This document shows positions 16,051 to 51,220 of a stretch of DNA of 64,000 bases, in pieces. Numbering within the stretch: the first letter of the stretch is position 1; the number at the start of each line of letters is the position of its first letter. The translations under genes and the position numbers were made by a program. Below the pieces are notes generated by a model. That model was not told where the DNA came from. It searched no databases and worked only from the letters and a program-made list of their open reading frames with translations. This stretch comes from Aurelia coerulea (taxonomy: Eukaryota; Cnidaria; Scyphozoa; Semaeostomeae; Ulmaridae), in contig CM076951.1 in NCBI GenBank assembly GCA_039566865.1, positions 12,719,484 to 12,783,483 on the forward strand, read 5' to 3'.

Positions 16051-16166
16051 TATTTTAATTGCTCTGTATTATTTTTGAATTGTGAAAATTTTAATTTTGT
16101 GGTGAATTGAAACATGCATACATTGTATTGTATAGCCATGATTTTCTGCTGTTATAACGTATTGAA

Positions 16167-17747
16167 ATGGAGGATCAAGAAGTTGCTGCCATGGTAAATG
16201 AGTTAGAAGCTCAAATGACGGCCATTCAAGCTGCTTTTGAAGGAAACACCCAGTCAGGCTTATTTAGAAAAGCCCCGTTTTGTGGGAGCCAAAACGAAAA
16301 TGTGAAGGAATGGTTGACTAAATTTGAACGATTTTCAAAGTTTTGTAAGTGGTCAAATAGCAAAAAGTTGGGTGCACTTGTGCTTCTTTTTGGGGGGACA
16401 GCCCTGGCCTGGTTTCAGACTCTGCCTGAGGAAACTGTGAACAATTTTGCTACGTTGGTAGATGGATTAAAAGCACAATTTGGAGCCCAAAACCTTGAAT
16501 TTATTTTTCGACAAGATCTTTATGCAAGAAAACAAGACCAAAATGAACCTTTTCATGCGATATCGTGCGGAAATGCCAGCAGTTATCACCAAATGATAAT
16601 GATATGATGAATGTTTTTATAAACGGTTTGAACAATGAGATAAAAACTCATGTCATTTTAAATCAGCACCAATCTCTTGTGAAGTTGAAAGCCTTGCATG
16701 ATTGAAGAGTGCCGTTGGGAGTGCCACAGGATGAGCCAACTCACAGGCTACTGCCACCACCCAAATCTTTCACAAGAACAAAAGATAAAGGAGCTTGAAG
16801 GTCAGGTCAATTTGCTCATGACTTTGGCCACCCAGAAGAATTGTAAAACCCCTCGAGGCTCTCAAAGCTAAAATGCCCTCGATTGTGAAAACTCAGACGA
16901 ACCCATTTTCGCCTGTGATGCATCAATCTGATGCCAGAAATGAACTTGCAGATGCGAAACAAGAGATAATTGATGCCTTTGAAACTCGTTTCTGGGGGAA
17001 TCAATTCCAACACGGAAGAGGAAAACCACGTCAACCGCTAGGTAACCAAAACGTTTCAAGAGGTCAAAATTTACGAACAACCGATGGCCAACCAATTTGC
17101 AACAGTTGCCAATGTGTAGGGCATGTTTCCAGATACTGTAATTTTCGAGCCCAGTTGGTTCTTCACAGTGGGGAAATTAAAGACCTAACAACTTTCCATT
17201 TCAAAAACCGCCCCAAACGAAAAGCAAAACTGACAGTGCATTAGGATATTGGGCTAAGATAAGGATGAACAAATTTGAAACTGTTTCAAAATTGAGCCCA
17301 GACAGTGAGCCGTCTATTTTGATGAACAGTCAAGATAAAAACGTAGAAGTGCCTTCGAAATTGCAGATTAATGAAAATGTTGACATTCCATGTCTTGAAC
17401 TAGAAAGTAACCTTTTGCCAGCTGCCCCCTCCAACGTTTTAATATGGGGAGCTGTTTGCAAACAACCAACGCAAGTTTAAGTTGACACTGGTGCTGCTAT
17501 TACCGTCGTAAGTGAAAAGTTTTATATTGATGTTTTGCCTTCAAATTTTGCGATGACGAAAAGTGACAAAATCGAAAGTATCAAAACTGCCAATGAAAGT
17601 ATAGTTTGGGTTAGTGGTTCGGTAAACTTTCCCGTTTTGCTTGGTGACCAAGAATATTTGTATGACAGTTTTGGAACATTCACTAGCGAGTGTACTACGG
17701 TTCTTAGGCCTCCCTCAGTTAACATATCTCTGGACTGTATCATATAA
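16167..17747 (+). pseudogene. Ty3/gypsy-like gag and protease remnant
   Basis: Starts at ATG 16167. The first 146 codons are a retrotransposon gag capsid-type domain (VKEWLTKFERFSKFCKWSN, then ALAWFQTLP). The frame is broken near 16600. A second open stretch at 16873-17244 holds one CCHC zinc knuckle, CNSCQCVGHVSRYC, near 17098-17139. A third (17265-17747) reaches an aspartic protease site VDTGAAITVVSE at about 17483, just after an in-frame TAA at 17478-17480. RT, RNase H and integrase are absent; the sequence changes after 17747. At least three lesions, so dead. A fragment of the same gag start recurs at 43503. Confidence 0.8.
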
Positions 17748-21311: not shown

Positions 21312-22386
21312 CAGTGGTGTAGAGCTGGGGGGGCTCAGGGGGGCTCAGCCCCCCTAGTTATTTTTTCCGTAATTTTGGGGGGGCTTTAGCCCCCCTAGTT
21401 ATTCTGAAGAAATTTTGATTTTCTTAATTTGTTTCTTATGACCAAAATGACAGAACAAGGTAATGTTATATTCTTTTAAAGAAGAGATCCTGGTTTCTGG
21501 TTTGCACCAAGATGAGATCTTCAATGACTGTCAAGCTCTTATCTTCCTTGATGTTTATGAGCATAAATGGGTCTCCTGTACATCTATGGGGTGCCGTGCC
21601 ACTAATGTTACATCAAAATGGCTTCAGAAACACAAAATTGCAAATGACAATAGAACAAGGAAGTGCAAACGGACATCAAAGTGGCAAGGCGATGGGGGCA
21701 TGGGGTGCCCCCCACTTGTCTCAAAAATGGTCCTCGATATTCCTTTAACACGGAAGAGAAATGGCTGGGTATAGGTTCGGTGAGAATTATTCCGCAAAAT
21801 GCCAAATGCTAAAAGGAGATTACATAATTGAACTGTTTTGTCAAAGCTTCGGCAACGCTTCGGAAATAGCACTGGTAAATACGGAGTCAGAGGATGCCTT
21901 CTGAGCCAAAGAAAAGGATGTTTGTTCAAAAATTTTCTTCGTGCTCTGATTTGTAGAATAAATTTCAGTTGTCACAAAACTATCAAGGTTTTCTTGTTGC
22001 TAATGGCAAGCATGATATTGGGAGATGCATTCTAAGCCAAAGTAAAGGATGTTTCTTCTAAAATTTTCTTTGAGCTCTGATTTGTAGGATAACTGTCAGT
22101 TGTCACATAACTATCAAGCCCTTCTTGTTGCTAATGGTAAGCATGATATTGGGAGATGCATTCTAAGCCAAAGTGAAGGATGTTTCTTCTAAAATTTTCT
22201 TTGTGCTCCGATTTATAGGATAACTGTAACAAAACTATCAAGGTTTCCTCGCTGCTAATAGCAAGCATGATATTGGGAGATGCATTCTACGCCAAAGTAA
22301 AAGGCGTGGCCCCAACAAATTTCCTGGTACCACATCTCTTTCTCTACCTGAGCCCCCCTAGTTATTAATCTAGCTCTACACCACTG
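21312..22386. mobile_element. Non-autonomous hAT element, 1075 bp, 8-bp duplication CGAATAAG
   Basis: TIRs CAGTGGTGTAGAGCT at 21312 and inverted at 22386. The direct repeat CGAATAAG lies at 21304-21311 and 22387-22394. Behind the left TIR is a block of GGGGGGCT/AGCCCCCC pairs. From about 21880 to 22300 there are three to four ~115-bp tandem units containing GGGAGATGCATTCTAAGCC. The same internal unit occurs, inverted, in the hAT element at 24030. No transposase. Confidence 0.9.
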
Positions 22387-23002
22387 CGAATAAGCGACAC
22401 TGCTAGAGCTGCAAGATCACAAACAGTAAGAATTTACAAGGGTACGCCTGCTTTCATGGCTCCCGAAGTCATAAGCCCGAATCTTCGCCCATTTAACATG
22501 GACGGAGAGCAGTTAAGGAAAGCTGATGTGTGGAGTCTCTCTATGGTATTTTTTGTTTAGTGAATCCAACAGCCAAAGTTCCCTTTTTCAATGAAGCAAA
22601 GAAAAGGCAAAGCATCCTTGGAACGATTTCATGATAGATAAGTTCTCTTGCGGCAATATTCCAATTGGCGATGTAAAATATGACCACCTGGAATCAACAG
22701 AATGGCTCCAAGTCTATGAGGCATTTATCTCTGGTGTCATAGTTGATCAAAGCAAGCGTCCAACACTAAATCAAATGGAGATGATTCTGTTCAGCAAAGT
22801 TGAGTCACAAACATACAATCTGCCAAGTCCATCAAGGCTCTGCTTTTGAAAATGCCTTTCCTTTTGGAGAAGAAGGATGATTCGTACGTCCAGATAATGA
22901 CAGGACAAATTCATGCGCATTTTTATCATTGAAGATTGCTGAACATCTCCTTCTATTTGGAATTGAAAGCTGGATTCTGCTCATGAAGAAAGTATCCAAG
23001 AT

Positions 23003-23175
23003 TATGGCGCGCCGTTGCGGCAAAAAACATTAAAATTTTGTGCATGTCAAAATATTATTTTGTGTACGTCATTTACAACTTTTGTGCTTGTCAAAATATA
23101 AAATTGTGCATGTCAAAAAGTATTTTTGTGTTGGCCTCTTTCGAATTTACTTTTGTGTATGTCAAAACTACTATA
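23003..23175 (+). repeat. Left TIR of the 16.7-kb element
   Basis: Starts TATGGCGCGCCG and contains spaced copies of TGTG(C/T)ATGTCAAAA at about 25-30 bp intervals, candidate transposase-binding subterminal repeats. It carries a single copy of the motif that forms the 42-copy array in the right end. Confidence 0.88.
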
Positions 23176-24029
23176 ACTAAACTTGTGGAATTTTCTGAGC
23201 GGGCGGAATTTCTATTGTATGCGAGATCGCTCTGGAGTTGAAAGAAAGTTGCGAAACGGGTCAGCCTTCTTCTGCCAGTCACTTCAACAGCTTTTGTAAG
23301 ATGCACAGTGATCCAGATCGACGAAATTATGGAATAAATAGGAAAACATGAAGTTTCGAAAACATGCAAATTTCATGTTTCAATTAAAGAGGATATCCTT
23401 GGGCTTAACAGAAAGCAAAAATTTTCAAAATCGGACTATCCAATGATGAGAAATGGAATTTTGAAGTTTGTCAAAACGGGGTGTCCAAGTCAGACCCAAG
23501 GCACTTTTCGAAGTGGGTCTACACATAATTTTTGGGTCTAGGGTAAAATTCTTCGGGTCTGTTACTATTTAGGTTCTTAGATCTTAGGTCTACAGATGGA
23601 CCAAGTTTGGGTCTGCTTGAAAATATAATTTGCAAAAATCAGCCATAATCGGGCAGAAATCCGCCTCAAGTCGGGCAAAATTTTCTCAAACAATGGACTT
23701 TTTATCGGGCAGCTCCCCAAATTTTATCTCCCCCTACGCCGATGGGAGGTACATGGTCTCTACAATCTTCTATACTTTTCTATCATGCTCATACAAAGGT
23801 TTAACATATGCACCCTAAACGCCGACCTGTTCAAGCGAAATACATACCCTATTCGCGGAAAATTTTCTGCAGAACATACCATTTCCCGCGTCCAAATAGA
23901 GCTTCTCAATTTCAGGTACCATAATCACTGACAAGTCAGTTACTAAAATTGCTAGAATTGCCGGTGTGATTTAAAGAGGAGTACCCTGGGTACCAGACCC
24001 TCTAAAATCAAATTTTATGGATGCCACCA

Positions 24030-25036
24030 CAGTGGCTTGGCCAGGGTAAATTAAATGGGGGTATTGAAATGAGAGGGCCTGGGGGCGAAGCCGTTAGGAA
24101 ATTTTTTGGGACACACCCTTTACTTTGGCTGAAAATGCACCTCCCAACATCATGCTACCAATAGCGACAAGGAAACTTTGATAGTTTTGTGACAGTTATC
24201 CAATAAAGTAGACCACAAGGAAAATTTTTGTAGCAACATCTTTTACTTTGGCTTAGAAAGCATCTCCCAACATTATGCTTGCCATTTGTGGCAAGAAAAC
24301 ATTTATGGTTCGTGACATTTTTTCTATAGCTACATCGGAGCAGGAGGAAAATTTTTGAAGATGCACCCATTACTTTGGCGTAAAATGTATCCCCTGATTC
24401 CATTTTTGCCAGTGCTAAAATGGAAGCTTTGACATTTCTCAGAAAATTCTTACCTCACCTATGCCAAGCCATTGTCTCTTCGGTTTTAAAGGACAAGTCC
24501 GGGGTTGGTATGATTGATGATAAAATACAAGATAATACTGCAATGAATGATGTATAATACTTTTTTCCACGATTTCTCGTCATCTTCTTGTGAAATTACA
24601 TATTCAAATAAGCAATTTGAGTGAAGTGACGTCATATCGTGCAAACGAAAACGAGGCTGTGTGATTGTTTATTCGCCTCTTTATCGTAGCAAGCCTCCTT
24701 ATCGTGTTCTCATGCCATTTTCAATGCATGAGTACATGACGCAGAGGCTAGCAGCGATTAAGAGGCGAAAAAGCAATCGCACATCTTCGTTTTTGTTTGT
24801 GCGATATGACGTCACTTCGCTCAAATTGCTTATTTGAATACGTAATTTCACAAGGAGAAGGCAAAAAATAGTGGGAAAAAGTATCATGCATCATTCATTG
24901 CAGTATAATCTTGTATTTTATCATCAATCATACCAACCCCGGACTTGTCCTTTTGAAGGAAATCGAGAACCATCTTTCGAAAAAAGTGGTGGGGACATGA
25001 CCTCACATACCCCCCGCCCCCTGTGGCCACGCCACT
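24030..25036. mobile_element. Non-autonomous hAT element, third nesting level
   Basis: Ends CAGTGGCTTGGCCA at 24030 and TGGCCACGCCACTG at 25036. Imperfect 8-bp duplication TGCCACCA (24022-24029) versus TGCTGCCA (25037-25044). It carries the same GGAGATGC...CCAAAGTAAA tandem units as the hAT at 21312, in opposite orientation, so the two are related. Confidence 0.78.
24488..24953. mobile_element. 466-bp palindromic MITE, innermost nesting level
   Basis: Ends AAAGGACAAGTCCGGGGTTG and its reverse complement. Arms of about 200 bp match almost base for base around a GAGGCG/CGCCTC centre near 24690. Target duplication unclear because of flanking T/A runs. Confidence 0.82.
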
Positions 25037-25682
25037 GTGCTGCCATGATGTTAATAATGTTAAAAATGATGTTAAAGATTCTATTTCATAGAGTCGGGTA
25101 CCCAGGGTAGAAGAGAAAACTGCTCCCGAATTCCTACCCCATCTTGTGCTGGTCTGCTAAGTTCTTTGACTCGCTACAAACTCTATTTTAGAAATTTTGA
25201 TTAGATATCATTGCAGAGGAGTTCAGATTTATCAAATGCAAAATAAGACACCCTTTTGTAAAACCATGGTCAAATCGGCACCCCTAAACACGGGCCCGCG
25301 CGGGCCCGTGCCTACTTTGAAGAAAGGCACCCTTTCCTGCGTTTTTTTTGTACGCGCATGATAACACATCAGGTACTAAGTGCCCCCCCCCCCCCCGGAA
25401 GAACTGTTTCACTTCCAAAGTGCATAATTATCATAAAATCAATCATCGTGCCCAGAAGGTTACTAACGAGTTGTTTTTAGTTAAAACAAATATCTAACAA
25501 CAACAAATGCTACTTTAATCTATTATGAAGTTTTGGGTCTAAGAATATTATGTTAATTGTCGGGTCTACCAGAAAACTGCCTTTAATATTCTGGGTCTGC
25601 GTCAAACTCAAGAATTTTGGTCTGGGTCTACGCGAATTTCTTTTGGGTCTACGTGTTTTGGGTCTGACTTGGACACCCCGTT

Positions 25683-26063
25683 ATTAAATTACTAGAACCT
25701 ATTTGGAGCATTCCTGCAAAAGGGCCGGTTTCAAATCGTTTTAATTTTGTCGCAAAAAAGTTTGAAGATTGCATGTGACATAGGTTTTTATTTCCTGATT
25801 TCCAAGCAAAACTGTAACAGTGCCGTGACTGTTTTCTTCAAGGCAAGAGCTCTAGATTTGCGAAATTGGTTCTCAAGAATTCAAAAGAGGTATTCTCGAT
25901 GCAGTGATAGAAACAATAGCCGATTTTTGTGAAACAAAAGCTTAATGCTGTGAAACAATAGACCTGCATTGGAAAACAGAATCTGTTGTCTCTTTCTTTC
26001 TGCAAGGTCCCACCAATTGAGAAAGGTTTAATACTTCGATATACGCTATGTTAAAATTCGCTT
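25683..26063. other. No gene recognised (inside 16.7-kb element)
   Basis: Short ORFs only; no repeat or motif recognised. May belong to the ancestral body of the large element. 23176-23474 is likewise unremarkable. Confidence 0.35.
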
Positions 26064-26523
26064 GATATCTAAATCTAGTGGAACTAATTGAGTCAAAACA
26101 GTTTCGCCGTCTCAACACCGAATTGTTTAGTTTGACAAAAGTACATCGAATCAGTCACAAGGCTATCATTTGTTGCTTCAACATATGGTTCAGCAGACTG
26201 ACGACTTTTCTTTAAGCTATCTTGACGGGAATTTGCCACAAGTCGCCATGACGTTATCAGCATCCGCAAAATAATGTATTCGAGGTTGGCATTGATATCT
26301 AAATCTAGTGGAACTAATTGAGTCAAAACAGTTTCGCCGTCTCAACACCGAATTGTTTAGTTTGACAAAAGTACATCGAATCAGTCACAAGGCTATCATT
26401 TGTTGCTTCAACATATGGTTCAGCAGACTGACGACTTTTCTTTAAGCTATCTTGACGGGAATTTGCCACAAGTCGCCATGACGTTATCAGCATCCGCACA
26501 ATAATGTATTCGAGGTTGGCATT
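26064..26523. repeat. 230-bp perfect-looking tandem duplication
   Basis: The block beginning GATATCTAAATCTAGTGG at 26064 is repeated at 26294 with almost no differences (one A/C near 26269/26499). The minus frame is open through both units (SRQDSLKKSRQSAEPYVEA...), which may be a duplicated coding segment of unknown type or chance. Confidence 0.85.
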
Positions 26524-26660
26524 AATTGAAGTAAGCCTGGCCCTACACCCAGCTCCACTTCGAAAGTTCCTGATGTGCTTGCCCCATCCCTCCAAGCCAT
26601 TTCACGACCAAGCTGCAATTGGTCCACCCTCATGCATATCGAAGAGCTCCCAGTTATGGG

Positions 26661-26901
26661 CCAACATTTGATGATGAACAGATGGGTTAATTTAGACCCA
26701 TGGAAGATGAAGACATAGGTGGATCATCGTATCATGGCAGTGCTGCTTGAAACAGTTGACGTCAAGGATATTGATTTTGTCAAAACTTTCCAAAACTGCG
26801 AGGCAAACATTAAACTGGCTAAGAAGGATAAGAATTATACACATGTGTCTTCATTTTCCATGGGTCCGAATTAACTCATCTGTTCACCAAATGTTGGGTG
26901 T
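26661..26901. repeat. Inverted repeat, ~58-bp arms
   Basis: 26661-26720 (GAACAGATGGGTTAATTTAG core) is repeated inverted at 26842-26901 with a ~120-bp spacer. It ends directly in front of the integrase gene's first readable codons, so it may be a small insertion that removed the gene's start. Confidence 0.65.
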
Positions 26902-27536
26902 TGGGTAACTCTGCAGCAAAAACTGTTTGAGTACGATTTGAATCAGGAAATAGAGGATGGCCTTGTTCGTTTAACTGAGATATTGCAAACACGTTGCAAC
27001 TTCTTACTGAATGATGCAGAAAAGAATTCTACACAGCAAGTGCAAGCAACTGTTGCTCCAAATTTTCAGTGTCCCACTGAAGTGACAGGTCGACAAGGAC
27101 GACCAGCTTAGCTCGTATCACCTGAACAGATCGAAGGTCTACGCGCCCTCGGGTTTTCCTGGAAGCAGGTTGCCTCGTTGTTGTCGATATCAGAAAGAAC
27201 TCTAAGGACTAGAAGGAAGGAATTGGAAATAAGGGAAAAATATACCGATATCAATGACAATCAGCTTGATACTCTCGTTGAACAATTGTTGCTGGAATCA
27301 CCAAACATGGGTGAAAAGCTTTTATCAGGTGCTCTGCTGGCAAAAGGAATTCACATACAGAGAAAACGTATGCGCCAGTCAGTGTCTCGGGTGGATCCTG
27401 TAGGAAAAGCACTCCGCAGATTCCGAAGGCTAAGAAGGAGAGTATATTCAGTGGAAGGACCGAATGCTTTGTGGTGAGTGCAAGTACAGTACACGTCTTT
27501 TTCAGATAAGAAATTGGCTTATAAGACCAGTGCTAA

Positions 27537-27699
27537 TAGTCCCTTTTCATGAGACCCGACATGGTAAATACAGTTTTCTCATATCGGGGCGATATGAAAA
27601 CCAAATTGCCTTTGCCGCGTATTTTGCCGGAAATTTTCATGTCATGTGGGGTCTCATGGTGACATGAGCTGCATGTTGGGTCTCCATGTAAAGGGCCTA
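27537..27699. mobile_element. PIF/Harbinger-type MITE in integrase intron
   Basis: 163-bp palindrome with ends TAGTCCCTTTTCATGAGACC and GGTCTCCATGTAAAGGGCCT, flanked by TAA at 27534-27536 and 27700-27702. It begins 63 bp after the exon 1 donor. Same end type (GGCCCTTTACATG) as 20735-21175. Confidence 0.8.
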
Positions 27700-29038
27700 T
27701 AAGATGGCAAAAATTTTAAAAAGTAAAAAACATCTGCAGCTGTAAGATACCACATTATTGATAATTCATGTGAAAATGTTCATGTTGAATTAAGAAACTC
27801 AAGGGCGGGCATGTCACACTGGGAAGGATGGTCCTACCTTTGTCCGAAAACCGGTCGTTCATGAAAAAATTTTGCACCAACTTTGTCCCTGGTCGTTTTT
27901 GATGGCAAATTTCCACTGTTATTTTTCTTCAATTTGAAGGACAATTTTTAACATTATGTATCACTGACGATGTTTGTCCCTAAAATCGGTAGTTTCGACC
28001 TACTACTGTTTTCCAAACAAGTAGTAATTATAGATATGAAAGTACAAGTGTCCCAAAACCGGTTACCAGACAATGGTAGGACCGCTTCGGTGAAAAAGTT
28101 GAAATTCTGGCCTTTTTTTCGGAAATTTGCCGGACAAATGTAGAACCGCTTTAGTGAGAAATTGTAATTTCTGGTCTTTTTTCCGTAAATTTGGCGGACA
28201 AAGGTAAAACCGCTTATGTGAAAATTTTGAAATACTAGTCTTTTCTGCCTAAATTTGGCGGACAAAGGGAGAACCCGCCTACAGGTAAATTTCAGAATTT
28301 TGATTAGATAGGAGGTTGGGAAACTTGATTTTTGTGACAAACTGATGGAATATGAAGAATGAGATTCAAATTTCACCTTTGTCCCAAAAACTGGTTATTT
28401 TGGGCACGAAAGGTGTACTATTTGATAAAAGCTCCAGTTATTTGTTTCCAATTCCTCTGGACAAACATGGGGTCAAATATTTTACAGTACTTGCCCACCC
28501 CTGGAAACTCAGAGTACTTATGGCTTTATCCAAGTTTGTAAATGCAGTATAGTAAGCACCTGCGCATAAAAACCTTCCACTTTGAAATTCAGCCTGGGTT
28601 CATGTGCAATTAAAACAATGGATTAGTTCGTAAAATATTGGGAGTTTAATTAAACAATTTTGCCCTGTAGGTTCTTAGTTTATCCAGTTATATGTCGTGT
28701 ACTGCATATTTAGCAACGAAAATAGGCCTGTCCATCGACCATGATTTTACTATTCGATTAATTGTGAACAATATTTCAGATTAATCGATACTCCGTTCCG
28801 TTCTACGGCTCACTTTTCAGAGACGCCACTATTCTGAACGGAACCGAACGGAGTGCTTCTCATCGTTCAGGTGTGAAAACCTGCAAAAGTCCTTTTTTGG
28901 AGCAGTTCCATATCGTTCCGTGCTGGTACGTTCCCTTCTCATGTGAACGGGGCCTAGATTTGCTTTATGCTTCTTTTAGACTTACCGAATATTTGGTATC
29001 GAAAATCTAAATCTAACTCTTTTGTCGTTCCATTTCAG
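27700..29038. other. Remainder of integrase intron; 63-bp tandem repeat inside
   Basis: Between 28075 and 28280 a ~63-64 bp unit (GGCGGACAAAGG.AGAACCGC) is repeated three times, with related words back to 27830. Near 28795-28960 CGTTCCGTTC / GAACGGAAC modules and GTGAACGGGGCCTAG look like one end of another Harbinger-type element. No further coding. Confidence 0.5.
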
Positions 29039-29846
29039 GCATATTGACAGTCACCACAAGCTTATTAGGTGGCGAATCGTCATACATGGCTGCATTGATG
29101 GCTTCTCAAGGCTCATCGTATATCTGCATTGATGTGATAACAATCGTGCTAATACAGTAGCTGCATTGTTTGGCTCATCAGTTGAAAGGTTGTACTGGCC
29201 AAGACGAGTTCGTTCTGATATGGGCATGGAGAACATAGAAGTCGCTCGTATGATGCTAAACAAGCATTGGCCACAGCCCTCCCCTCATTTAGCCGGTTTA
29301 TCTGTCCATAATCAGAGAATTGAGCGGTTATGGAGAGATGTAGTAACATACGTTGTTTCGCATTTCAGGGAATTGCTCTATAGCATGGAAAGCAGTAATA
29401 TTCTAGATCCTTTGAATGAAGTGCACTTGTTGGCAGTTCAAAAAGTATTTGTCCCAAGAATTGATAAGGCGCTTAATGATTTCATTTTGCAGTGGAATTT
29501 CCACTCCTTAAGAACTGAACAATCAAGAACCCCAATGCAACTCTGGATGGGAGGAATTTACAAAAACATAATGGGAGATTCAATCAGAGACATGGTCAAC
29601 AGAGATGAATTTGACCCAGCTCAGTATGGAGTTGATGTGGTTCGGGACGATGAGTTGGCGGAAATCGAGACTAACAACAATGTTAGTATTCCACGACATC
29701 CATTTGATTTTAACGACCACAAAGAGGCGTTAATAAGTCATGTTGATGCCCTTACTGATGATGGAGAATTTGGAGTTGCTATTTTCTTGCACGTCGTTGA
29801 TATTCTTCACGGGTTAGATAGTGTACGAGCATATTATCGAGTATGA

Positions 29847-30413
29847 GCAGATAAACGTATGAGACTCAAAAAAACAACCTGATTCCCATAAACATCAAGG
29901 TGCCGTGGTGAACCCAACACAGTAAGAAGTAAACAGTCTATTAGAAGTAAACAGTTGCTGCAAACTACAAACTAGAGCACTAATTACACACGTTTAAATG
30001 TTCGAAATGGAGGGGGTGGGTGGGCCTATCAAATATACCGGTGTAAAGCCCCCCCCTCCTCCAATATGCACCTGTTAGCCGTTTTTGTACCGATCAACGG
30101 ACAAAAACTTAGTATATCTCATTTTGTTGATTTGCAAGTGTATGCACAGCACCAGTTGGTTTCTTAACACAGGGTGCCATGATGTACTGGGGGGGGGGCT
30201 ACAGAATAACAGAAGCGACTCGTTATCACCCCTAACTACATCTTCATACAAGATATCGTATCTGTAAATGTTTTGTCAAGAATGTTGAAACATCTTTTCG
30301 ATGACCTTGACAAAATTTTCGAAGAGCCTATCTAGATTCATTACTGCTTCCAGTTTCCGGTGTTTCAGTTGACTGACATTTTTTATTGTACTTGAGTATT
30401 TGTTATAGAACAA
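29847..30413. other. No gene recognised
   Basis: Non-coding between the integrase stop and the inverted repeat. It holds a short direct repeat (AAGAAGTAAACAGT near 29925-29955) and a run of 9 G near 30190. Confidence 0.35.
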
Positions 30414-31069
30414 GCAAATAATGATAATGCTCTTGGTGGAACAAGGGCAGATTTTGTAATACAATAGCAACAGTTGCGTTTGATCGACACCTCAATTCAA
30501 AGCGATTAGCGGATGCAGACAAAGGAAATTCTCTCAACCAGTAATTCAAAACAAACAAAGCCGCAAAAATTTCCCCGAAACTAGTAGGGCAAACTCTCGC
30601 CTTGTGCAAGGGAAAGATGGTTTTTAAGAGAAGTTATGTGCTTACAGCGAAAGAAGAAGGGTAAATCTAAAGTTCTGTCGCTTAGATTATGTTTATTTGA
30701 TTCAGGAGCCGAGCAGAAGGCATTGTAATTCTCGCGTCTTTAGTGCTTAAAATGAAACGATTACAAAACAGCTCCTAAATCAAATAAACATAATCTAAGC
30801 GACAGAACTTTAGATTTACCCTTCTTCTTTCGCTGTAAGCACATAACTTCTCTTAAAAACCATCTTTCCCTTGCACAAGGCGAGAGTTTGCCTTACTAGT
30901 TTCGGAAAAACTTTTGCAGCTTTGTTTGTTTTGAATTTCTGGTTGAGAGAATTTCCTTTGTCTGCATCCGCTAATCGCTTTGAATTGAGGTGTCAATCAA
31001 ACGCAACTGTTGCTATTGTATTACAAAATCTGCCCTTGTTTCTTGGTGGTCCTACGTATCATTATTTGT
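30414..31069. repeat. Large inverted repeat, ~295-bp arms, 62-bp spacer
   Basis: 30414-30708 and 30771-31069 are reverse complements at about 90 percent or better. Both arms can be read outward as the same 60-70 residue ORF (LREFPLSASANRFELRC), simply because of the symmetry. It could be a palindromic MITE or an inverted duplication between the convergent integrase and E3 genes. No target duplication found. Confidence 0.85.
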
Positions 31070-31512
31070 CGAAAATCAAGATATACATTGCTGCTTATAT
31101 CCAGCTTCTCAACTAAAATCTGCAGGGAAAAGTCGTCCGTTCTTTTTCGTTCAAGATGAATCGGTCACAGTCCCTTGGACAAACATAAAAAAAGTTTTCC
31201 AACTTATTTTGTCTGTAGAGTCAGCTTGCCAAAGAATTCCACTTTTCGAACAACCATAACTTGGTTACAAATACAAACAACATTTATCAAATTGCTAAAA
31301 ATCAGCTAAAACGTGTAATAAAAAGGATCTTAAAAGGAGAATCTTGTAAGTTCAACGAACAAAACAAATCGTTAGCCATCCATGAAAAGTTCCAAATTGC
31401 GTCAACATAATCATATTGTAACAAACGTTTATAAATGTCTAAGGTGTCATAAATGTGAAAGACAATTTTTCATTGTGTAAGGCCTTTAAAGCATTCTTCA
31501 CCAGTCTATCAA
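31070..31512. other. No gene recognised
   Basis: AT-rich 3' flank of the HECT gene; possible 3' UTR of the minus-strand gene. Nothing else seen. Confidence 0.35.
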
Positions 31513-32565
31513 TCAAACGGAACCAAAACCAGGTGATGCAATGATATCTTCAATAATATTGGCAGTGAAGTTTTCACCCTTGTACCTCTCGTCTAATGGA
31601 AAAGTAACTTTCAACGTGCAAGTGCTCACCGTCACGCGCTTTTTTTGCTCGGAGCAGAACGTGAGTTTTCCCTTTCCCAGTGATAAGGGTGGCAAAAACT
31701 TTGAGCCTGTCAAGAAAAACAAGACATCTTCAAGCTTCATGTGGATGATTCTGATCTCCTCACTCATAGCAAGAAAATCAGTTTTTTTAGCTGTTGGCAC
31801 CATACCTTGTTCCAACTCATCCAAGAAGTTACACCAATTGTAAACAATATCCTGCTCTGCCTTCTGTTGCTCTTCTGAAAGGTTTTTCGTGTACTCAGCT
31901 TGGAACATTTCTTGCATAGCTTTGGATGTGAGATGAGAAATTTCATAGACCAGTTCTTTAGTTGATTCCTCTGTGTGTTACTTCAACGCATCTCGGATCC
32001 CATTGGCTGACAAACCATTCATGAACTGCTGGATTTCCTCCAGTTGCCGTGTTAGCACCCAGTACTTTGATAGTTTGCCTACAAGATCTGCCTTATCTTT
32101 CAGCAATATGACTGCTTTGTTGTAACCTGCCTCGAACCGCTCATCGAAGTTGGTCATGACTGCATCAAGGTCTTCTTGAGTAGTTGCATTGACTACTTCT
32201 TCTAATTTGGTTTTCCCTTCAAAGCATGGCACGTCGCTTACTTCACATATTGGTGCATCTCCTGATAAAACGTACTGGGCAAGGGGTTGGCAAAAATTGT
32301 GTGGCCCCGCAAAACCATTCATAAAACCAAGTGCCATGAATTTGCCATACAAACCATACCATTTCTTTTCTAATTTATGCAAGTCGTGTTGAAATGTGTA
32401 ATTTTTCTCATTACCCTGCATGAGGACTTGAGGTACTTCGTCATAAAAGGCTGTGAATAATTCACGGAGAGGTCCACCTTCGTCAACTGCGGGTTTCAGT
32501 TTGAAGGGAACTTGCTTTTTCTGTTTTGTTCTTTGGGCAAATGCAGAGGGTGATAACTGCTGTCT
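31513..32565 (-). pseudogene. HECT domain of E3 ubiquitin ligase (G2/M-phase-specific E3-like), one nonsense codon
   Basis: The minus frame opens near 32565 and reads KKQVPFKLKPAVDEGGPLRE at about 32525-32465 (HECT N-lobe entry, D-x-GGP-x-RE), then LEKKWYGLYGKFMALGFMNG, CEVSDVPCF and QLEEIQQFMNGLSANGIRD. A TAA at 31978-31980 interrupts. The same frame continues through MFQAEYTKNLSEEQQ, LSEEIRI-type text, EDVLFFLTGSKFLPPLSLGKG and VSTCTLKVTFPLDERY, ending ASPGFGSV at 31513. The Cys in STCTLKVTFP sits where HECT ligases carry the ubiquitin-accepting Cys. So a near-complete HECT domain exists apart from one stop. It lies inside the 16.7-kb element and reads toward the integrase. It belongs with exons at 36001-36269 and 38127-38358. 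Confidence 0.85.
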
Positions 32566-33139
32566 TTATTCTTATAATTTGCAACACTGTTTTCAAGTTG
32601 TTGAGCAGTGTGGAAACAGTATTTGTACTTGTTTTTTATTTCAAGTACTAGGAAAAGGAAGTTTGGAGGCTGTGGAATACTATCAAAAGTAATTGAAATG
32701 GTCAGAGAATGTCTTAGCAGTTCCTCTTTTAGAGAAACAAACATGGTCGGGCGTGGTGAACTCTTTAGAGGTGCATCAAAAATGAAAACAATAACAAAGA
32801 TTCCGGGTATTAGCTAGTATAATGACGGTGACATGACAGAGTCGGTATTGGTTGAGGGTCATTTGGTGCAAGTGGATAGGTTTTATTTTCGTAACTGGCA
32901 AATGGCGAGGAATAGCTTTTGTAATGATATTTCGGCAAGAAAACTGGGCTATAGAAAAAACGGGGTGAAATAAGTATAATAACAGAGACAAAAGAAAAAG
33001 AAATATCACAATCTTAACAACACTGTAGTGTTTTTTGGAAAAATTATTCTTGGATTTTTTAGGCCTGCAAAGTTGTGTTATGAGATATCCAGGGATTCGA
33101 GATCTTATGAGAAATCTGTTTTAAAAGGCTAAGCTGCCC
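32566..33139. other. No gene recognised
   Basis: Should hold upstream exons or introns of the HECT gene, but no further HECT text was found. The minus ORF 32496-32744 overlaps in another frame and lacks motif support. Confidence 0.35.
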
Positions 33140-34110
33140 TACTGGCTGAGAAAGGAACAACCAAAATCTACAACACGCTACCAGTCATCTTATACAGGCA
33201 GAATGAGCAATTTGGTCAGGAGCATCAACTACTAAATTTAAAAATTTTTCAAAATCACATCATCAGATTTATGATTGGCCGCAAGCTGCAAGATCATGTC
33301 ACGAGAGAAAGTCTACGATCCCAAACAGAACTAAAACCTGTATCAGCTGTTATCAAAGTTAAAATGTTTTTGGCCTTATAAAACGGTCATCAATGGGACT
33401 ACCTAGATCGGTCTTAGGAGGCTCCGCCAATGGTTCAAGGAACCGGGAGGAACACCGAACGTCGCTGGATCGACGACATCAAGACCTGGATTGGGTCGTA
33501 TTTGTTTAAAACGGAAAAAACGGAATACATGTATCGCACTCATGTGAGTACTGTAGTCATGGACTATACAGATGCGCAATAAGGGTAGCACGTGAAATAC
33601 ACATGAATGAAGGTCTGGTGCACAGTATCTCCTGTAACGATTCAAGGAATTAGTACTAATTTACTGCGGGTGCAGAGTCAACTGGTGAACCCCAATAGTC
33701 TCATGCAGGGTCAACTGTCGAGCCCTATACGTCTGTTGGAAGGGTCATCAATGGGACAACCTAGATCGCTCTTAAAATGCTCCGCCAATGGTGCAAGGAA
33801 TCGAGAGGAACACCGGAACGTCACTGGATCGATGACATCAAGACCTGGATTGGGTCTTATTTATATAAATGGAGAAAACGGAATACAAGTATCGCACTCA
33901 TGTGAGTACTGTAGCCATGGACTATACAGATGCGCAATAAGGGTAACACATGAAATACACATGAATGAAGGTCTGGTGCACAGTATCTCCTGTAACGATT
34001 CAAGGAATTAGTACTAATTTACTGCGGGTGCAGAGTCAACTGGTGAACCCCATTGGTCGCATGCAGGGTCAACTGTCGAGCCCTGTACGTCTGTTGAAGG
34101 ATCAATTGTC
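33140..34110 (+). pseudogene. LINE RT C-terminal remnant with ~358-bp tandem duplication
   Basis: The + frame from about 33145 reads KIYNTLPVILYRQNEQFG ... HIIRFMIGRKLQDHVTRESL ... TELKPVSAVIKVKMF, then (frameshifted) RHWIDDIKTWIGSYL. This is the C-terminal tail of a LINE ORF2 (R-x-W-x-DDIK-x-W box). The last ~358 bp (from 33385) is repeated from 33743, and copy 2 keeps the frame better. It lies within the interval where middle exons of the HECT gene would be expected. Confidence 0.6.
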
Positions 34111-34179
34111 AGTGTCACAATCAATTTGTTAAAGATTAATTTCGACGGACATTAATTAACTATGAGTTAACTGTAGGAA

Positions 34180-34735
34180 CCTCATGTCAGATAAGGGGTC
34201 AACTGTTGGGCCCTTGTGTGAAGGGTCAGCTGTCAGATCAGGGGTCACGGGTCACCTGTCTGACCCTGTAAGAAGGTATGGGTCACCTGTCGGACCCGGA
34301 TAGAAGGTATGGGTCACCTGTCGGATCCGGAAGAAGGTATGGGTCGCCTGTCGGACCCGGAAGAAGGTATGGGTCACCTGTCGGACCCTGTAAGAAGGTA
34401 TGGGTCACCTGTCGGACCCGGATAGAAGGTATGGGTCACCTGTCGGACCCGGAAAAAAGGTATGGGTCACCTGTCAGACCCGGAAAGAAGGTATGGGACG
34501 CCTGTTGGACCCGGAAAAAAGGTAGGGGTCACCTGTCAGACCCTGTAAGAAGGCATGGCATGGGTCATCTGTCGGACCCGGAAGAAGGTATGGGTCGCCT
34601 GTCGGATCCGGAAGAAGGTTGGGTCGCCTGTCGGACCTGAAGAATGTATGGGTCGCCTGTCGGACCCGGTAAGAAGGTATGGGTCACCTGTCGGACCCGG
34701 TAAGAAGGTATGGGTCACCTGTCGGACCCAATTCA
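34180..34735. repeat. ~30-bp GC-richer minisatellite
   Basis: About 17-18 copies of GGTATGGGTCACCTGTCGGACCCGGAAGAA with G/A, C/T and length variants. The unit contains the near-palindrome GGGTC...GACCC. Length close to 30 keeps frames open, producing ORFs such as YGSPVGPGRR repeats on + and matching ones on -; these are not genes. Confidence 0.92.
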
Positions 34736-35070
34736 TGTCAGTCGATTGTGTATTGTGAAGTGCCAATATATTGTCGTTAATTGTTGTTGTTGTTGTCTGT
34801 TTGTTGTCTGTTTGTTGTCAGCATCAGAAAATTGGTTTGTAAATTCGAATTCAACAATGGCAGTGTCGGTGCCATTGTCCATAATGCCCTGTGAAATGCT
34901 TGAGATATGCAAAAATCTTTCGGCTTTGTCAATATATGTCTGTTTTATCATGGCAAATCGTAAACAAGGCGGGACCCATAGCGTTTCCAGGTAGTGGTGT
35001 TTCTCTCATTCTTCATCGGTTTCTTGGCATTGTTGTTGTTGGGGGTTGGGGGAACACGTTGTGTTCTGTG

Positions 35071-35291
35071 GTGGAAAAAATTATGGCTTATTTCTTGTAA
35101 CCCCCAACTGGCAAAATTTAGGGGGTTGAGCTGAGTGCAAATTTGGCCAATGCACTAACAACCAAAACTTAGGCCCCGATGATGAGAGAACACCACTGTT
35201 GGTTAGCGTGGGAAAAAGCAAATCACTTTATATTTGAAAGTGTGCTAAGAAGCTCTGAGGGGCCTATTATCCTCTGATCCCAAGAATTAAA
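35071..35291. repeat. Direct repeat copy 1 (~221 bp), possible LTR-like unit
   Basis: From GTGGAAAAAATTATGGC to CCCAAGAATTAAA. Repeated at 35771-36000 in the same orientation with period 700. The pair could be the ends of a short terminal-repeat retrotransposon (TRIM-like) or a segmental duplication; no TG...CA borders are evident. Confidence 0.7.
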
Positions 35292-35770
35292 TAGGGATTA
35301 AAATGCAATTTTACATCACAGTTAATTCGGGCAAAGAGGTCGTGTGTCATGGCGTCTCTAAAAGGAAGGGTATCGGTTATTGTACCCCTGTGTACCTGCA
35401 TGAAAACACCCCTGCCGTGCTTGGTGCCTTAGAATGTTATTTGGAAAATACTGAGTGATCAAAGCCCCTGTGGCCTTGCAAAACGAGGTTCAATATTGTT
35501 CAGGGAATTTCCGATTGTTCCCTGGATGCGTACGTGCGTCTTAACATGCGTCTTAAACTTATATAAAGGCATTTGCAAATTAGCATTGTTCTCACACTTT
35601 GATTTCAACATTGAGAATGCAAACATCTCTGGTTATCATCGATAGGCTGGTGGCTGATTTTCGCTTTCCCACCCACCCTCCTCTATTTCTGTTTAATCTT
35701 TTCATGCTGATGTTCCGTTGTCTCTTTCGGAGGCAAGGATCATTGGCATGGACATTTAGTGCATTGGTTT

Positions 35771-36000
35771 GTGGAAAAAAATATGGCTTATTTCTTGTAA
35801 CCCCCAACTGGCAAAATTTAGGGGGTTGAGCTGAGTGCAAATTTGGCCAATGCACTAACAGCCCAAACTTAGGCCCCGATGATGAGAGAATGAGAGAACA
35901 CCACTGTTGGTTATCGTTGGGAAAAAGCAAATCACTTTATGTTTGAAAGTGTGCTTAGAAGCTCTGAGGGGCCTATTATCCTCTCATCCCAAGAATTAAA
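35771..36000. repeat. Direct repeat copy 2 (~230 bp), abutting a HECT-gene exon
   Basis: Copy 2 differs by a small duplication (GAATGAGA) and a few changes. It ends at 36000 exactly where E3-ligase coding text (minus strand) begins, so the repeat unit replaced or interrupted the exon's downstream end. Confidence 0.75.
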
Positions 36001-36269
36001 GCCAGATATAACGAATCCATCATTATAAAGAGTTTCTCTCGCTGCACCCTTTGGAACTGAGGTCATGCGTGGCGATGGCAGCAGAATAACATCTTTGATC
36101 CATACTTTATCAACTGGTTGCTTTGCTTTTTGCATCTGCACTGTGGCTCTTCGTTTCTTTCCACCTCTTGTCCCACCGTTAAAGGCTGGCCTGCGATCAG
36201 GATTGAAAGGACGACTGAAAGCAGGATTGAAAGAACTCCTTTGATAGGTGTTTGCAGATGCTGGAGGCC
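36001..36269 (-). pseudogene. HECT E3-ligase gene, exon 2 (truncated)
   Basis: Minus-strand acceptor TTATTCATTAG precedes 36269. The exon enters in phase 1, matching exon 1. Text: PPASANTYQRSSFNPAFS, RPFNPDRRPAFNGG, a basic GGKKRRATVQ, then VWIKDVILLPSPRMTSVP and LYNDGFVISG. The K-D-V-x-LLPSP motif is found N-terminal to HECT in the cnidarian G2/M-E3-like family as I remember it. Coding similarity ends at 36001, where the 230-bp repeat begins; the open frame runs on to 35932 only by chance. Confidence 0.7.
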
Positions 36270-36619
36270 CTAATGAATAAAAAATTTCGTTGAAATATTC
36301 CTCGTTTGAAAGCATAATCATAGCAGGGAAATAAGATTGGCACCCTCTTTGGCTACCTTTAAAAATCAATTCGATTTTTAATTTTCATTTTCGTTTAGTT
36401 ATGCTGAATCGTGTAAGTTATAACTAAATATTATCATGTGCAATATTATCTTTGCGATTGAGGCTTTTCACAGGCCAGTTTGTAAAAGAGTTAGTTCCAC
36501 TGGCAGCGCCAGCGTCAAAAAATGGAGGGGAAGAAGGAATGAGGGTAAGCGTAGCCTGCAGGAAATTGTTTTGCATCACGCCCTTTTTACCCTCAGGAAA
36601 CACCCTTCTTTGCCTATCA

Positions 36620-37105
36620 AACTCTAAAAATGAGAAGATCGATAAACCTACTCAAATTCAAGCCTTTGATGGCATGAGAAAGGAAAGGCCTATTTTTGAT
36701 ACCAAAGGCTGAACTCAAAGTCGTTTTCTCTGAACTCAGTAGTAACTTAATTCGTATTCTCTGAACGATATATATTTTCTCAACGGCATATAAGTTCAGC
36801 CTTTTGCATCACATCTAAAATGTTGACTGGAAAACTAGGCCGTTTCATTTTCATGACATCCACGGCTTGAATTTGAGCAGGTTTATCCATGGGTAGTTAG
36901 ACACTGCTGGTGTGCTTCTATGGAGGAGCGCTGGATAATATTTATCTGCGAGGGAAATTTTTTATAGTACTGCGGAGGAGTGTTCTTTCGATATCTCCTC
37001 CGCAGTACCACAAAGAATTTCCCCCGCAGATACATATCCAGCGCTCCTCCATAGAAGCACACTAGCAGTGTCTAACTACCCATGGTTTATCGATCTTCTT
37101 TTCGA
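36620..37105. mobile_element. Palindromic MITE interrupted by a younger one
   Basis: The left arm 36624-36718 (GATCGATAAACC...GGCTGAACT) is the inverted partner of 36788-36887 plus the first bases after 37092. The right arm is split by the 197-bp element at 36888-37084. An internal palindromic centre lies near 36750. Confidence 0.65.
36888..37084. mobile_element. 197-bp near-perfect palindrome with 7-bp duplication GTTTATC
   Basis: Ends CATGGGTAGTTAGACACTGC and inverse. GTTTATC stands at 36881-36887 and 37085-37091 (8 bp GGTTTATC if the last G is counted). Arms of about 85 bp around a short centre near 36985. The duplication length suggests hAT-like or related mobilisation. Confidence 0.85.
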
Positions 37106-38126
37106 CATGAAGACATCGGCCTAAACCACAACCGATGTTCTCAAATACAATTTAGCCTTTCAGCAATGGGATAAAACAAGAGTTTTTGAAAATCGGTTCA
37201 TTGGTTATGGAAATATAATGAGCAATCGAGCGATATCACATGATTTTGGGACACCCGGTTCTTCATCCTTGTTCGGTCGTTATCCTGTCAATCAGTTCAA
37301 CAAAAAGGTCTATGCACACAACTCTTTACAAGCTAATTACTTGTCTGGAACTTAGGCGGGCAATACTTGTGAGAAATGTGAATTATCAATGCTTATTTTA
37401 TTTCCACATCACTAAAAACGTTTATTTCCTTTTTCTAAACGTTTAGACAACAATATTTGAAATGTTTAGACAAAAACACCCAATGGGGGTGGGGGCGCTT
37501 AGAGCACATACGTATCTGAGAAGGTCAGAGCACAACTCAACCCAAAAATATGAGTTCAGTTTCACTGCTACCCTACAACATCAGCTAATTTTATACTTTC
37601 ACGAAATATCACGAAACAATGCAATTTGCATCAGGATTGCCTCTAAGCAACCCAAAAATTTCAGTTTGAGTATATTTGATGCCAAGAAATATCATGGCCA
37701 TGTCTTCAGTCTCTACATTTTTCAAATGTTGGTGGCTGTAGCTCCCAAACCCCTGCCTCGTGCTGAGTGCCCCTCCCCAAGGGGAGAGGCACAACTGAAG
37801 TGCCTTTTCACTAATGATGCGGAAACAAGTGAGAGTATTAGTAAAAATAGAAAAATTTGCTGACGATTTCCTTTATAGGGGGCGAAGAACGAATATTTTC
37901 CGACGGCACAATCATGATCTACAACAGCAACAACAACAACAGCAGTTTTAGGACCATGCAGTGGAGATTCTTGATTTTAAGCAAACAAATCTGAAGTTTT
38001 TTGTGGGCGTTTCTCATACAAAAAATACGTGAAGGGTTTTAATCAGGGTTGATAAGAGGGCCATGGCTTCAAAGAACTGTCATTGCTTGCAATGGTAGAC
38101 TCAACATTTGCAGAAATTATACTTAC
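37106..38126. other. Intron 1 region of HECT gene
   Basis: Between exon 2 and exon 1 of the minus-strand gene. ORF 37462-37863 (+) has no support. A CAACAG microsatellite-like patch lies at 37925-37945. Confidence 0.4.
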
Positions 38127-38358
38127 TTTGGTTCAATTGAGCTGAAATTTCGTCAGATCCAGCAGCATTCGACGCTGACATTCTTGGTTGCTCTGCCGAT
38201 GAGCGAATCGTCGGAAAAGCATTCGCCAAATAGCCACGTACATCACCAGTTTGGCCTTCGCTAAACGCTCTTCTGTTGAGTGAGCTTAATCTATTTGCAG
38301 CCTCCATAAGGTCGCTGACAATTTGCTGGTCTTCACCGCGATTTCCTTGCCTGTCCAT
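38127..38358 (-). CDS. HECT E3-ligase gene, exon 1 (start codon exon)
   Basis: ATG at 38358-38356 reads MDRQGNRGEDQQIVSDLMEA, then ANRLSSLNRRAFSEGQTGD and ISAQLNQ to the donor A|GTAAGT at 38127/38126 (phase 1). The upstream in-frame ATG (38382) adds eight residues and is less likely. A polar, Ser-rich N-terminal region, no stop inside. Joins exon 2 at 36269 in frame as R-PPASAN. About 220 bp separate the start from the minisatellite of the right TIR, which is therefore the promoter-proximal sequence. Confidence 0.65.
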
Positions 38359-38579
38359 GGTGAAATCAAAGCAAGAATACACGCCTTCAAATAATCGCGT
38401 ACTGCATTTTGGCAGTCGACATATCTCCTTGCCGGGGGTAACGCGCTCTAACGTTTGATTTCCAGAAAGAACCTAACAGACCGCAGCCAACGAATAACAA
38501 ATCAATTTCACCCCCCCCCAAGATTTGTAATTTGGTACTGCCAGAGACAAAACAATATAATTCTTAACCTGACATCACA

Positions 38580-39590
38580 AGTTTTAGTTTTGACATACAC
38601 AAAAGTTATAGTTTTGACATACACAAAAGTTTTAGTTTTGACATACACAAAAGTTTTAGTTTTGAAATACACAAAAGTTTTAGCTTTGACATACACAAAA
38701 GTTTTAGTTTTGACATACACAAAAGTTTTAGTTTTGACATACACAAAAGTTTTAGCTTTGACATACACAAAAGTTTTAGCTTTGACATACACAAAAGTTT
38801 TAGTTTTGGCATACACAAAAGTTTTAGTTTTGACATACATAAAAGTTTTAGTTTTGACATACACAAAAGTTTTAGTTTTGACATACACAAAAGTTTTAGT
38901 TTTGACATACATAAAAGTTTTAGTTTTGACATACACAAAAGTTTTAGTTTTGACATACACAAAAGTTTTAGTTTTGACATACACAAAAGTTTTAGTTTTG
39001 ACATACAAGAAAGTTTTAGTTTTGACATACACAAAAGTTTTAGTTTTGACATACACAAAAGTTTTAGTTTTGACATACATAAAAGTTTTAGTTTTGACAT
39101 ACACAAAAGTTTTAGTTTTGACATACATAAAAGTTTTAGTTTTGACATACACAAAAGTTTTAGTTATGACATACACAAAAGTTTTAGTTTTGACATACAC
39201 AAAAGTTTTAGTTTTGACATACACAAAAGTTTTAGTTATGACATACACAAAAGTTTTAGTTTTGACATACACAAAAGTTTTAGTTTTGACATACACAAAA
39301 GTTTTAGTTTTGACATACACAAAAGTTTTAGTTTTGACATACACAAAAGTTTTAGTTTTGACATACACAAAAGTTTTAGCTTTGACATACACAAAAGTTT
39401 TAGCTTTGACATACACAAAAGTTTTAGTTTTGGCATACACAAAAGTTTTAGTTTTGACATACACAAAAGTTTTAGTTTTGACATACATAAAAGTTTTAGT
39501 TTTGACATACACAAAAGTTTTAGTTTTGACATACACAAAAGTTTTAGTTTTGACATACACAAAAGTTTTAGTTTTGACATACACAAAAGT
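38580..39590. repeat. 24-bp minisatellite, about 42 copies, in the right TIR
   Basis: Unit GTTTTAGTTTTGACATACACAAAA, exactly 24 bp, so both strands stay open (two 397-codon ORFs plus others) without being genes. Variant units (AGCTTTG, TTGGCAT, ACATAAA, TTATGAC) occur in the order C, C, GGC near 38756-38815 and again near 39380-39440, about 624 bp (26 units) later, showing an internal block duplication. Its right edge is the single motif copy of the TIR, so it is an expansion of a subterminal repeat. Confidence 0.95.
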
Positions 39591-39736
39591 AAATTCGAAA
39601 GAGGCCAACACAGAAATACTTTTTGACATGCACAATTTTATATTTTGACAAGCACAGATTTTATAAATGACATACACAAAATAATATTTTGACATGCACA
39701 AAATTTTAATGTTTTTTGCCGCAACGGCGCGCCATA
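39564..39736 (-). repeat. Right TIR of the 16.7-kb element
   Basis: Reverse complement of 23003-23175 with a few changes; outer end GGCGCGCCATA, followed by the duplicated CAAGAT. Confidence 0.9.
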
Positions 39737-39923
39737 CAAGATCATCAAAGAATTCCCAAAATCATTCAACAATGTCAGAGATGTCAATGAGCAATATGAA
39801 ATTATAGATGCCTATGATTCGATACGATCCGTGGATCTCATTGTAGAATGTGTGGAAGAAAGGAGCTTTTAACTGCCTCAAATACAATTAACAACGTTGC
39901 TATTGTTTCAATACCACCATATA
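39737..39923 (+). pseudogene. Right part of the interrupted kinase-like gene
   Basis: Continues the gene from 23002. With one CAAGAT removed the frame runs SKIIKEFPKSFNNVRDVNEQ and YEIIDAYDSIRSVDLIVECV. It stops at 39870, but one base over it goes on as LLTASNTINNVAIVSIPPY up to the TA where the next MITE inserted (39922). No more of it was recognised after that MITE. Confidence 0.75.
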
Positions 39924-51122: not shown

Positions 51123-51220
51123 GGATACGAACGTAAATCAGTTGGTTGATCAGTATAAGGACCGGTGGATACGTGTTCAAAACCAGAGCTGACTGCGAAA
51201 GCAGCCAGTTTTGTCCTAAG

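Follow-up and report, generated by a model that had tools for sequence, protein, structure and literature searches.

IS3EU-like DNA transposons of Aurelia coerulea carrying a predicted HECT ubiquitin ligase gene convergent with an integrase-type transposase

In a stretch of 64,000 nucleotides of the Aurelia coerulea genome (assembly GCA_039566865.1, contig CM076951.1, positions 12,719,484 to 12,783,483; hereafter the window), a gene for an integrase-type transposase and a gene related to HECT ubiquitin ligases lie between the ends of one mobile element. The locus raises the question whether the ligase gene belongs to the element or landed in it later and, if it belongs, what a transposon would gain from adding ubiquitin. 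The window element is a cut-and-paste DNA transposon of the IS3EU type with two genes, present here as a dead copy. We place high confidence in the features that the sequences show: the anatomy of the element, its 6-bp target site duplications (TSDs), the terminal inverted repeats (TIRs) shared between copies, a convergent gene order that recurs in separate lineages, open frames of great length, selection acting on the protein, and the retention of residues on which HECT ligases depend.

Repeat analysis and a genome search placed the TIRs at 23003-23170 (plus strand) and 39569-39736 (minus strand): they are 168 bp long and 96% complementary, in agreement with the length of about 170 bp given in an earlier note made from the letters of the window alone. 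Their outer sequence begins TATGGCGCGCCGTTGCGGC, and the left TIR, TATGGCGCGCC..., contains copies of the motif TGTGYRYGT. Comparison of the flanks confirmed a perfect 6-bp TSD, CAAGAT, directly flanking the TIRs on both sides (22997-23002 and 39737-39742). When the flanks were joined with a single CAAGAT, an open frame of 83 residues, reading ...MKKVSKIIKEFP..., was obtained across the junction; no Pfam match (E<=0.01) was found in it. Of the proposal that excision restores a host frame, the open frame itself stood, while its identity as a host frame is plausible, not proven.

Between the TIRs the two genes are convergent, with the integrase on the plus strand and the HECT gene on the minus strand. 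The first exon of the HECT gene starts with an ATG at 38358, which is 221 bp from the start of a tandem array of a 24-bp unit (38579-39590, approximately 42 copies by tandem-repeat analysis) that adjoins the right end; the spacing of about 220 bp reported before is therefore correct. The TGTGYRYGT motif is common to TIRs and arrays, and the one at base 37 of the TIR is conserved in the sister family described below as well. On the HECT side 36 motif matches were counted in the window copy; the arrays of four copies of 9.3-11.6 kb have 11-14 matches, compared with 36-40 in the window and C8 copies. These motifs are likely candidates for transposase-binding sites.

A search of the whole genome (574 Mb) with the TIR located 19 close places, with 92-100% identity over 121-168 bases, and in addition a set of matches of 43-45 bases at 89-91%. 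The close places correspond to six paired elements (the window, C8, two on C11, C9 and C1), to two further elements with one recognised end (C11:15.77 Mb and C5:1.29 Mb), and to remnants and single matches which were not counted as copies: five remnants, each with no more than 221 bp of the element in the surrounding sequence retrieved (C16, three on C21, C4), and single TIR matches on C20, C2 and C7. The short matches yielded five more pairs, on C1, C5, C9, C13 and C21, which form the sister family, plus single matches, one of which, on C17, belongs to a locus with both genes. The three C21 remnants (L043-L045) lie 0.2-0.9 Mb apart and have nearly the same flank and the same 221-bp element end; they represent a duplication of one remnant.

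HECT and integrase matches were found between the ends in all 11 TIR-paired copies located (6/6 in the window family and 5/5 in the sister family), and the two genes are convergent in each of them. The ligase therefore belongs to the element, and a nested insertion of its gene is ruled out. This is the outcome of the search with the TIR that the earlier note had proposed: no TIR-bounded copy lacking the HECT gene was found in it, and such TIRs do enclose HECT genes of this type, although one solitary gene, C9:7654799-7657774, has no TIR nearby. The attribution of the ligase to the element, until now a conjecture, is supported by the paired copies, by their convergent arrangement and by the same gene order in a third lineage.

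Both ends were read in the sequence for nine of the 11 paired copies, leaving out C5:8.71 Mb, for which the HECT half only was read, and C21:3.43 Mb. A perfect 6-bp TSD was present in eight of these nine. Two of the copies, C11b and C11c, share one TSD and flank, indicating a single insertion that was later duplicated; these two have the ends TATGG..CTATA, and the other seven have TATGG..CCATA.

The association was also analysed starting from the proteins. Two merged searches found 68 HECT loci (the full-length HECT query giving the best 62 of 241 candidates), and two merged searches found 172 integrase loci (the best 150 of 335 and the best 150 of 521 candidates). Rows of the HECT search matching query residues 1-30 only, a dispersed repeat (30/95), were left out of the pairing counts. 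Among the matches listed, an integrase lies no more than 20 kb from 36 of 68 HECT loci, the two genes being convergent in 36/36. With an earlier, smaller integrase list 31/68 loci were paired; when positions were shifted at random 2000 times, the count averaged 2.9 and never exceeded 12. Convergent pairs extend down to 25-27% HECT identity.

The sister family is approximately 61% identical to the window family in the HECT protein (first query) and 59% in the integrase. The third lineage (L055) has about 47% identity in both proteins, with the same gene order. At E<=1e-5, DNA of the window and sister families could be aligned only in coding stretches and in the outermost 43-45 bp. Each gene is read with one intron, the borders of which look alike by eye in both families. 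Of 15 HECT loci in the two families, 11 have an open frame of at least 693 codons, namely 10 of the 14 with an integrase and the solitary C9:7654799-7657774.

Rates of substitution were estimated for ten HECT exons (678-718 codons) chosen for being open, nine from the two families and one from the third lineage, broken frames being left out. Between lineages dN was 0.43-0.65 and dS was saturated, which indicates that the HECT protein has been under selection. For the integrase, dN between lineages was 0.30-0.50 for exon 2 and approximately 0.43 for exon 1. Identities of the two proteins rise and fall together (Spearman coefficient 0.89 over 28 pairs and 0.93 over seven family values); the 28 pairs include the window's own pair, many copies of the same family and some partial integrase matches, so that 0.89 overstates the number of independent points. 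The gene pair appears, from these comparisons, to be old.

The second gene is predicted to encode a HECT ubiquitin ligase of approximately 750 residues in two exons. The HECT part of the window taken alone gave a Pfam E value of 0.0036, below the cut-off, and PF00632 was matched by seven of eight aligned members at E<=0.1 (best 1.2e-5). The closest solved structure was the HECT domain of E6AP (E 2.1e-4 with a single sequence, 1.3e-5 with a profile), a match that is clear over the first part of the N-lobe (21 bits). In the profile alignment the family cysteine falls, within a C-lobe stretch of 3.8 bits, on the TC motif of E6AP, the site of which we take to be Cys820. The motifs STC and GFG are invariant in 8/8 aligned sequences, and the frames end in PGFGSV, PGFGMV and PGFGLL in one copy of each lineage, with Phe at position -4. 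The C-terminal tail of HECT ligases, with Phe at -4, is needed for transfer of ubiquitin. The HECT residues required for a ligase are kept.

Upstream of the HECT part there is a conserved stretch, KDVILLPSP...VPKG...RDRPIYIRA, which has no Pfam name, and a zinc-finger pattern, C-x2-C-x11-H-x3-C, presumably of the UBZ type of RAD18, for which Pfam zinc-finger matches were sub-threshold only. A fold of the window HECT part computed from one sequence had a mean pLDDT of 38.7 and was not used. In a separate observation, HECT relatives with open frames of 761-811 residues (for example C5:2433093-2434319, C2:15959572-15960798 and C3:13401217-13402560) had no listed integrase within 20 kb; these may be other element families or host-adopted genes.

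The window integrase matches PF24764 with an E value of 3.3e-46, and two other copies with 2.6e-69 and 1.2e-69. D29 and E64 of A2, with 34 residues between them, are invariant; the first D, in HIDSHHK, was assigned by eye. Exon 1, which precedes the core, where IS3EU/GingerRoot elements have no HHCC zinc motif, gave weak HTH-like matches only. When solved structures were searched with the integrase profile, the sole match was a construct labelled miniGq, which was read as chance. The search for integrases of the PF24764 type matched none of 14 control genomes. In the A. coerulea genome many PF24764-type loci have single open frames of approximately 500-680 residues (best 150 of 521 candidates), and the genome seems to hold many intact families of this type.

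Several findings weigh against this account of the element. All family counts come from a single genome. Among the matches listed, 32/68 HECT loci have no integrase within 20 kb and 136/172 integrase loci have no HECT gene; since five HECT loci that had been single gained a convergent partner with the second integrase list, some of this unpaired remainder reflects incompleteness of the lists. The solitary C9:7654799-7657774 has a HECT part 95-97% identical to that of the sister family and no TIR match nearby; it consists of one frame of 989 codons with approximately 0.8 kb extra in the middle, and the nearest listed integrase is 74 kb away. C17:5185364-5187256, of the third lineage, is unpaired among the matches listed. 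These two loci may be truncated elements or host-adopted genes. One paired copy, C1b, has no TSD, the exon borders rest on reading by eye, and the HECT frame is interrupted in four of the 14 paired gene copies (the window, C8, C5:1.28 Mb and C21:3.44 Mb).

The protein evidence has its own adverse points. The HECT match is remote, two printed Pfam scores being 17.4 and 23.0 bits against a cut-off of 23.9; the C-lobe alignment that places the cysteine is not significant alone; and one zinc-finger cysteine is lost in two of three family-A rows aligned (C9a and C1a). Within the window family HECT dN/dS is 0.5-1.75 between copies, with few changes, and 0-0.5 in the sister family. The differences visible within families are probably drift after insertion, as expected for copies.

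The state of the window copy was established by alignment to the copy C9:3995058-4004345, of 9288 bp, which aligns over the whole window copy save for three insertions. The first (23304-26906) took the place of approximately 150 bp of the element together with the beginning of integrase exon 1. The second (30440-31040), recognised also by repeat analysis, is a nested fold-back with 270-bp arms of 97% identity. A 9-bp stretch of the element occurs on both of its sides, which suggests a transposon in its own right that made a 9-bp duplication. The third (32491-35995) replaced approximately 0.8 kb of the HECT gene and contains minisatellites. The undamaged form of the element is approximately 9.3 kb, and the window copy was swollen to 16.7 kb by later insertions; the larger figure, given earlier as the size of the element, is ruled out as its natural size. 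At the edge of the HECT fragment (approximately 32476-32565), 30 residues match 30 places in the genome at 80-90% identity; this stretch belongs to a dispersed repeat inserted into the HECT gene and is not HECT sequence.

Both genes of the window copy are broken. Integrase exon 1 (26905-27474, plus strand) corresponds to residues 51-240 of the exon-1 frame of the C9 copy, in which a donor GTGAGT was read by eye; the first 50 residues are gone and there is one in-frame stop. Exon 2 (29040-29843, plus strand) holds the DDE core, preceded in the C9 copy by an acceptor, TTTCAG followed by G, before HID (by eye), and is interrupted by a stop that follows the first catalytic D and precedes the second. 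The D, D and E reported as intact are thus present, but not within a single readable protein, and an intact integrase in the window is ruled out by the stops and the missing start of exon 1. The HECT gene (minus strand) is represented by exon 1, from the ATG to a donor GTAAGT read by eye in the C9 copy (38127-38358), by the N-terminal part of exon 2, residues 1-129 of its frame (35998-36384), and by the C-terminal part, approximately residues 395-719 of the 719-residue exon-2 frame (31516-32490). Approximately residues 130-390 of this long exon were lost, and the C-terminal part, identified by Pfam and the C9 alignment, has one in-frame stop, with the catalytic Cys and the Phe at -4 present. 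The window copy is a dead element, a fact that the earlier note, which did not see the stops in both genes, had missed in overrating this copy.

Other features of the window lie outside the element. A protein kinase fragment, below the Pfam cut-off, is located at 22369-22557, shortly before the insertion site. A retrotransposon gag-like frame (PF03732) lies at 16158-17244, and in the frame after it a CCHC-like motif was recognised by eye; a tandem array with a 105/219-bp unit, 93-95% alike, is found at 14859-15433. On the minus strand, a frame of 886 residues without introns (48477-51137) gave a weak TPR match in Pfam.

Elements of the IS3EU/GingerRoot group are described, in the part of the source consulted, as having 6-bp TSDs and TA..TA ends (PMC10045372), with ends of the form TAYGG..CCRTA in rusts, and an integrase-type transposase (PMC10045372, PMC12730594, each in part). 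The elements studied here resemble them in the 6-bp TSD (8/9 copies), the TATGG..CCATA ends and the integrase-type DDE transposase, and differ from them as described in carrying a convergent HECT gene. The IS3EU-like label given earlier fits by TSD, ends and transposase type, a class assignment by these features and not by a tree; the HECT-carrying element would be a variant of IS3EU-type transposons. The words HECT and ubiquitin do not occur in the main text of PMC10045372 or PMC12730594, and no publication joining IS3EU with HECT, or describing a HECT-carrying transposon, was found among the matches listed in a search without Repbase Reports or most subscription journals.

Other transposons offer partial parallels, taken here from portions of the papers cited. 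TET-positive IS3EU elements of fungi likewise have a second enzyme gene opposite to the transposase which is kept among families; the partner there is an alpha-kinase plus TET/JBP and not a ubiquitin ligase, and TET/JBP genes have moved between fungal transposon lineages without terminal signatures (PMC12730594). In Ginger1 an integrase-like transposase is joined with an enzyme of the ubiquitin/SUMO pathway, OTU or Ulp1; these are tag-removing proteases that form C-terminal domains of the transposase (PMC2836005), whereas here a tag-adding enzyme has its own gene. The 4-bp TSD of Ginger1 (PMC10045372) was not found in the window family, which has 6 bp. Helitrons also bear ubiquitin enzymes, the VTD and OTU deubiquitinases, suggested to shield transposition proteins from degradation; they differ in being rolling-circle elements, in removing ubiquitin and in having the domain inside the main protein (PMC9741609). 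In Chapaev transposases and RAG1 an E3-type domain, a RING finger, is tied to the transposase (PMC4411706); there it is fused to it, whereas the ligase described here is of the HECT type, with ubiquitin carried on a Cys, and is encoded by a separate gene. E6AP/UBE3A resembles the ligase in the N-lobe and, to a weak degree, in the C-lobe, where the active-site Cys and the Phe at -4 correspond; the similarity is remote, the N-terminal part is other and the gene is not mobile.

The anatomy leads us to infer that the ligase is made for the benefit of the element, and these findings together suggest that tagging of proteins with ubiquitin helps the elements to spread. The ligase would work in trans, as a helper of transposition. 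Tentatively, we propose that its conserved N-terminal region and UBZ-like zinc finger would recruit it to DNA or chromatin at the element, where it would ubiquitinate host proteins involved in silencing the element or in guarding and repairing the broken ends. It is more likely that an element which adds tags aims at something to remove or mark: a host silencer or repair protein, a spent integrase complex, or excess integrase, in that order.

The ligase might instead dismantle the complex of integrase and DNA once strand transfer is complete, which would leave the gaps open to filling by host repair. ClpX clears the MuA complex in this manner. In addition, with regard to the ubiquitin or SUMO proteases of Ginger1 and other transposons, it was proposed that these pathways act in repair during or after transposition (PMC2836005, in part). 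Other integrase-type elements manage without a ligase, and we consider this explanation rather unlikely.

Control of dose is a little less probable still: by ubiquitination the ligase would mark the integrase of its own element for destruction and so guard against overproduction or self-destructive excision. The two proteins share an element and the divergence of one tracks that of the other, and RAG1 offers a precedent in the ubiquitin ligase activity of its RING finger and in its autoubiquitylation, as cited in the part consulted of PMC4411706. A second gene would, however, gain a selfish element little in comparison with simpler controls of dosage.

That the HECT protein is a pseudo-enzyme, acting as a binding or architectural subunit, is doubtful. 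RAG2 serves RAG1 as a partner protein, and the HECT similarity is remote; against this, all eight aligned sequences have the catalytic Cys in its TC context and the terminal GFG without variation.

It is highly improbable that the HECT gene is a recently captured passenger, amplified by hitch-hiking and without benefit to the element. DNA transposons do take up genes passively, as described for fungal TET/JBP in the part consulted of PMC12730594; HECT dN/dS is near neutral within the window family, and one closely related HECT gene has no listed integrase beside it. Recent capture does not agree with three lineages in which synonymous sites are saturated and the protein is held, nor with a gene order kept, exon borders alike in two families and convergent pairs reaching down to 25-27% HECT identity.

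A chance neighbourhood of HECT and integrase loci in shared repeat-rich regions, to which their abundance on contigs C5, C9 and C22 might point, is refuted by the shift control (maximum 12 against 31 observed) and the paired TIR copies, with 36/36 pairs convergent and TIRs bracketing both genes in 11/11, and has practically no probability left.

With the ligase regarded as a working partner of the integrase, a wider reading may be ventured, which we consider a real possibility though short of an even one: a large, old branch of animal integrase-type transposons would depend on a self-encoded HECT ligase as a fixed partner, much as RAG2-like proteins are the partners of RAG1-like transposases, and would turn host ubiquitin on silencing or repair proteins at the element, the ligase being in effect a counter-defence E3.

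Transposons were known to bear tag-removing enzymes (OTU, Ulp1, VTD) and a RING finger fused to the transposase; here the HECT ligase stands alone. Its maintenance beside the integrase in diverged lineages points to selection for adding ubiquitin. As the HECT type has an essential Cys, one amino-acid change would provide a clean test of the need for ubiquitin in transposition. In genomes of this kind an annotated HECT ligase may in fact be the gene of a transposon, and the substrates of the ligase could reveal host factors that restrain DNA transposons.

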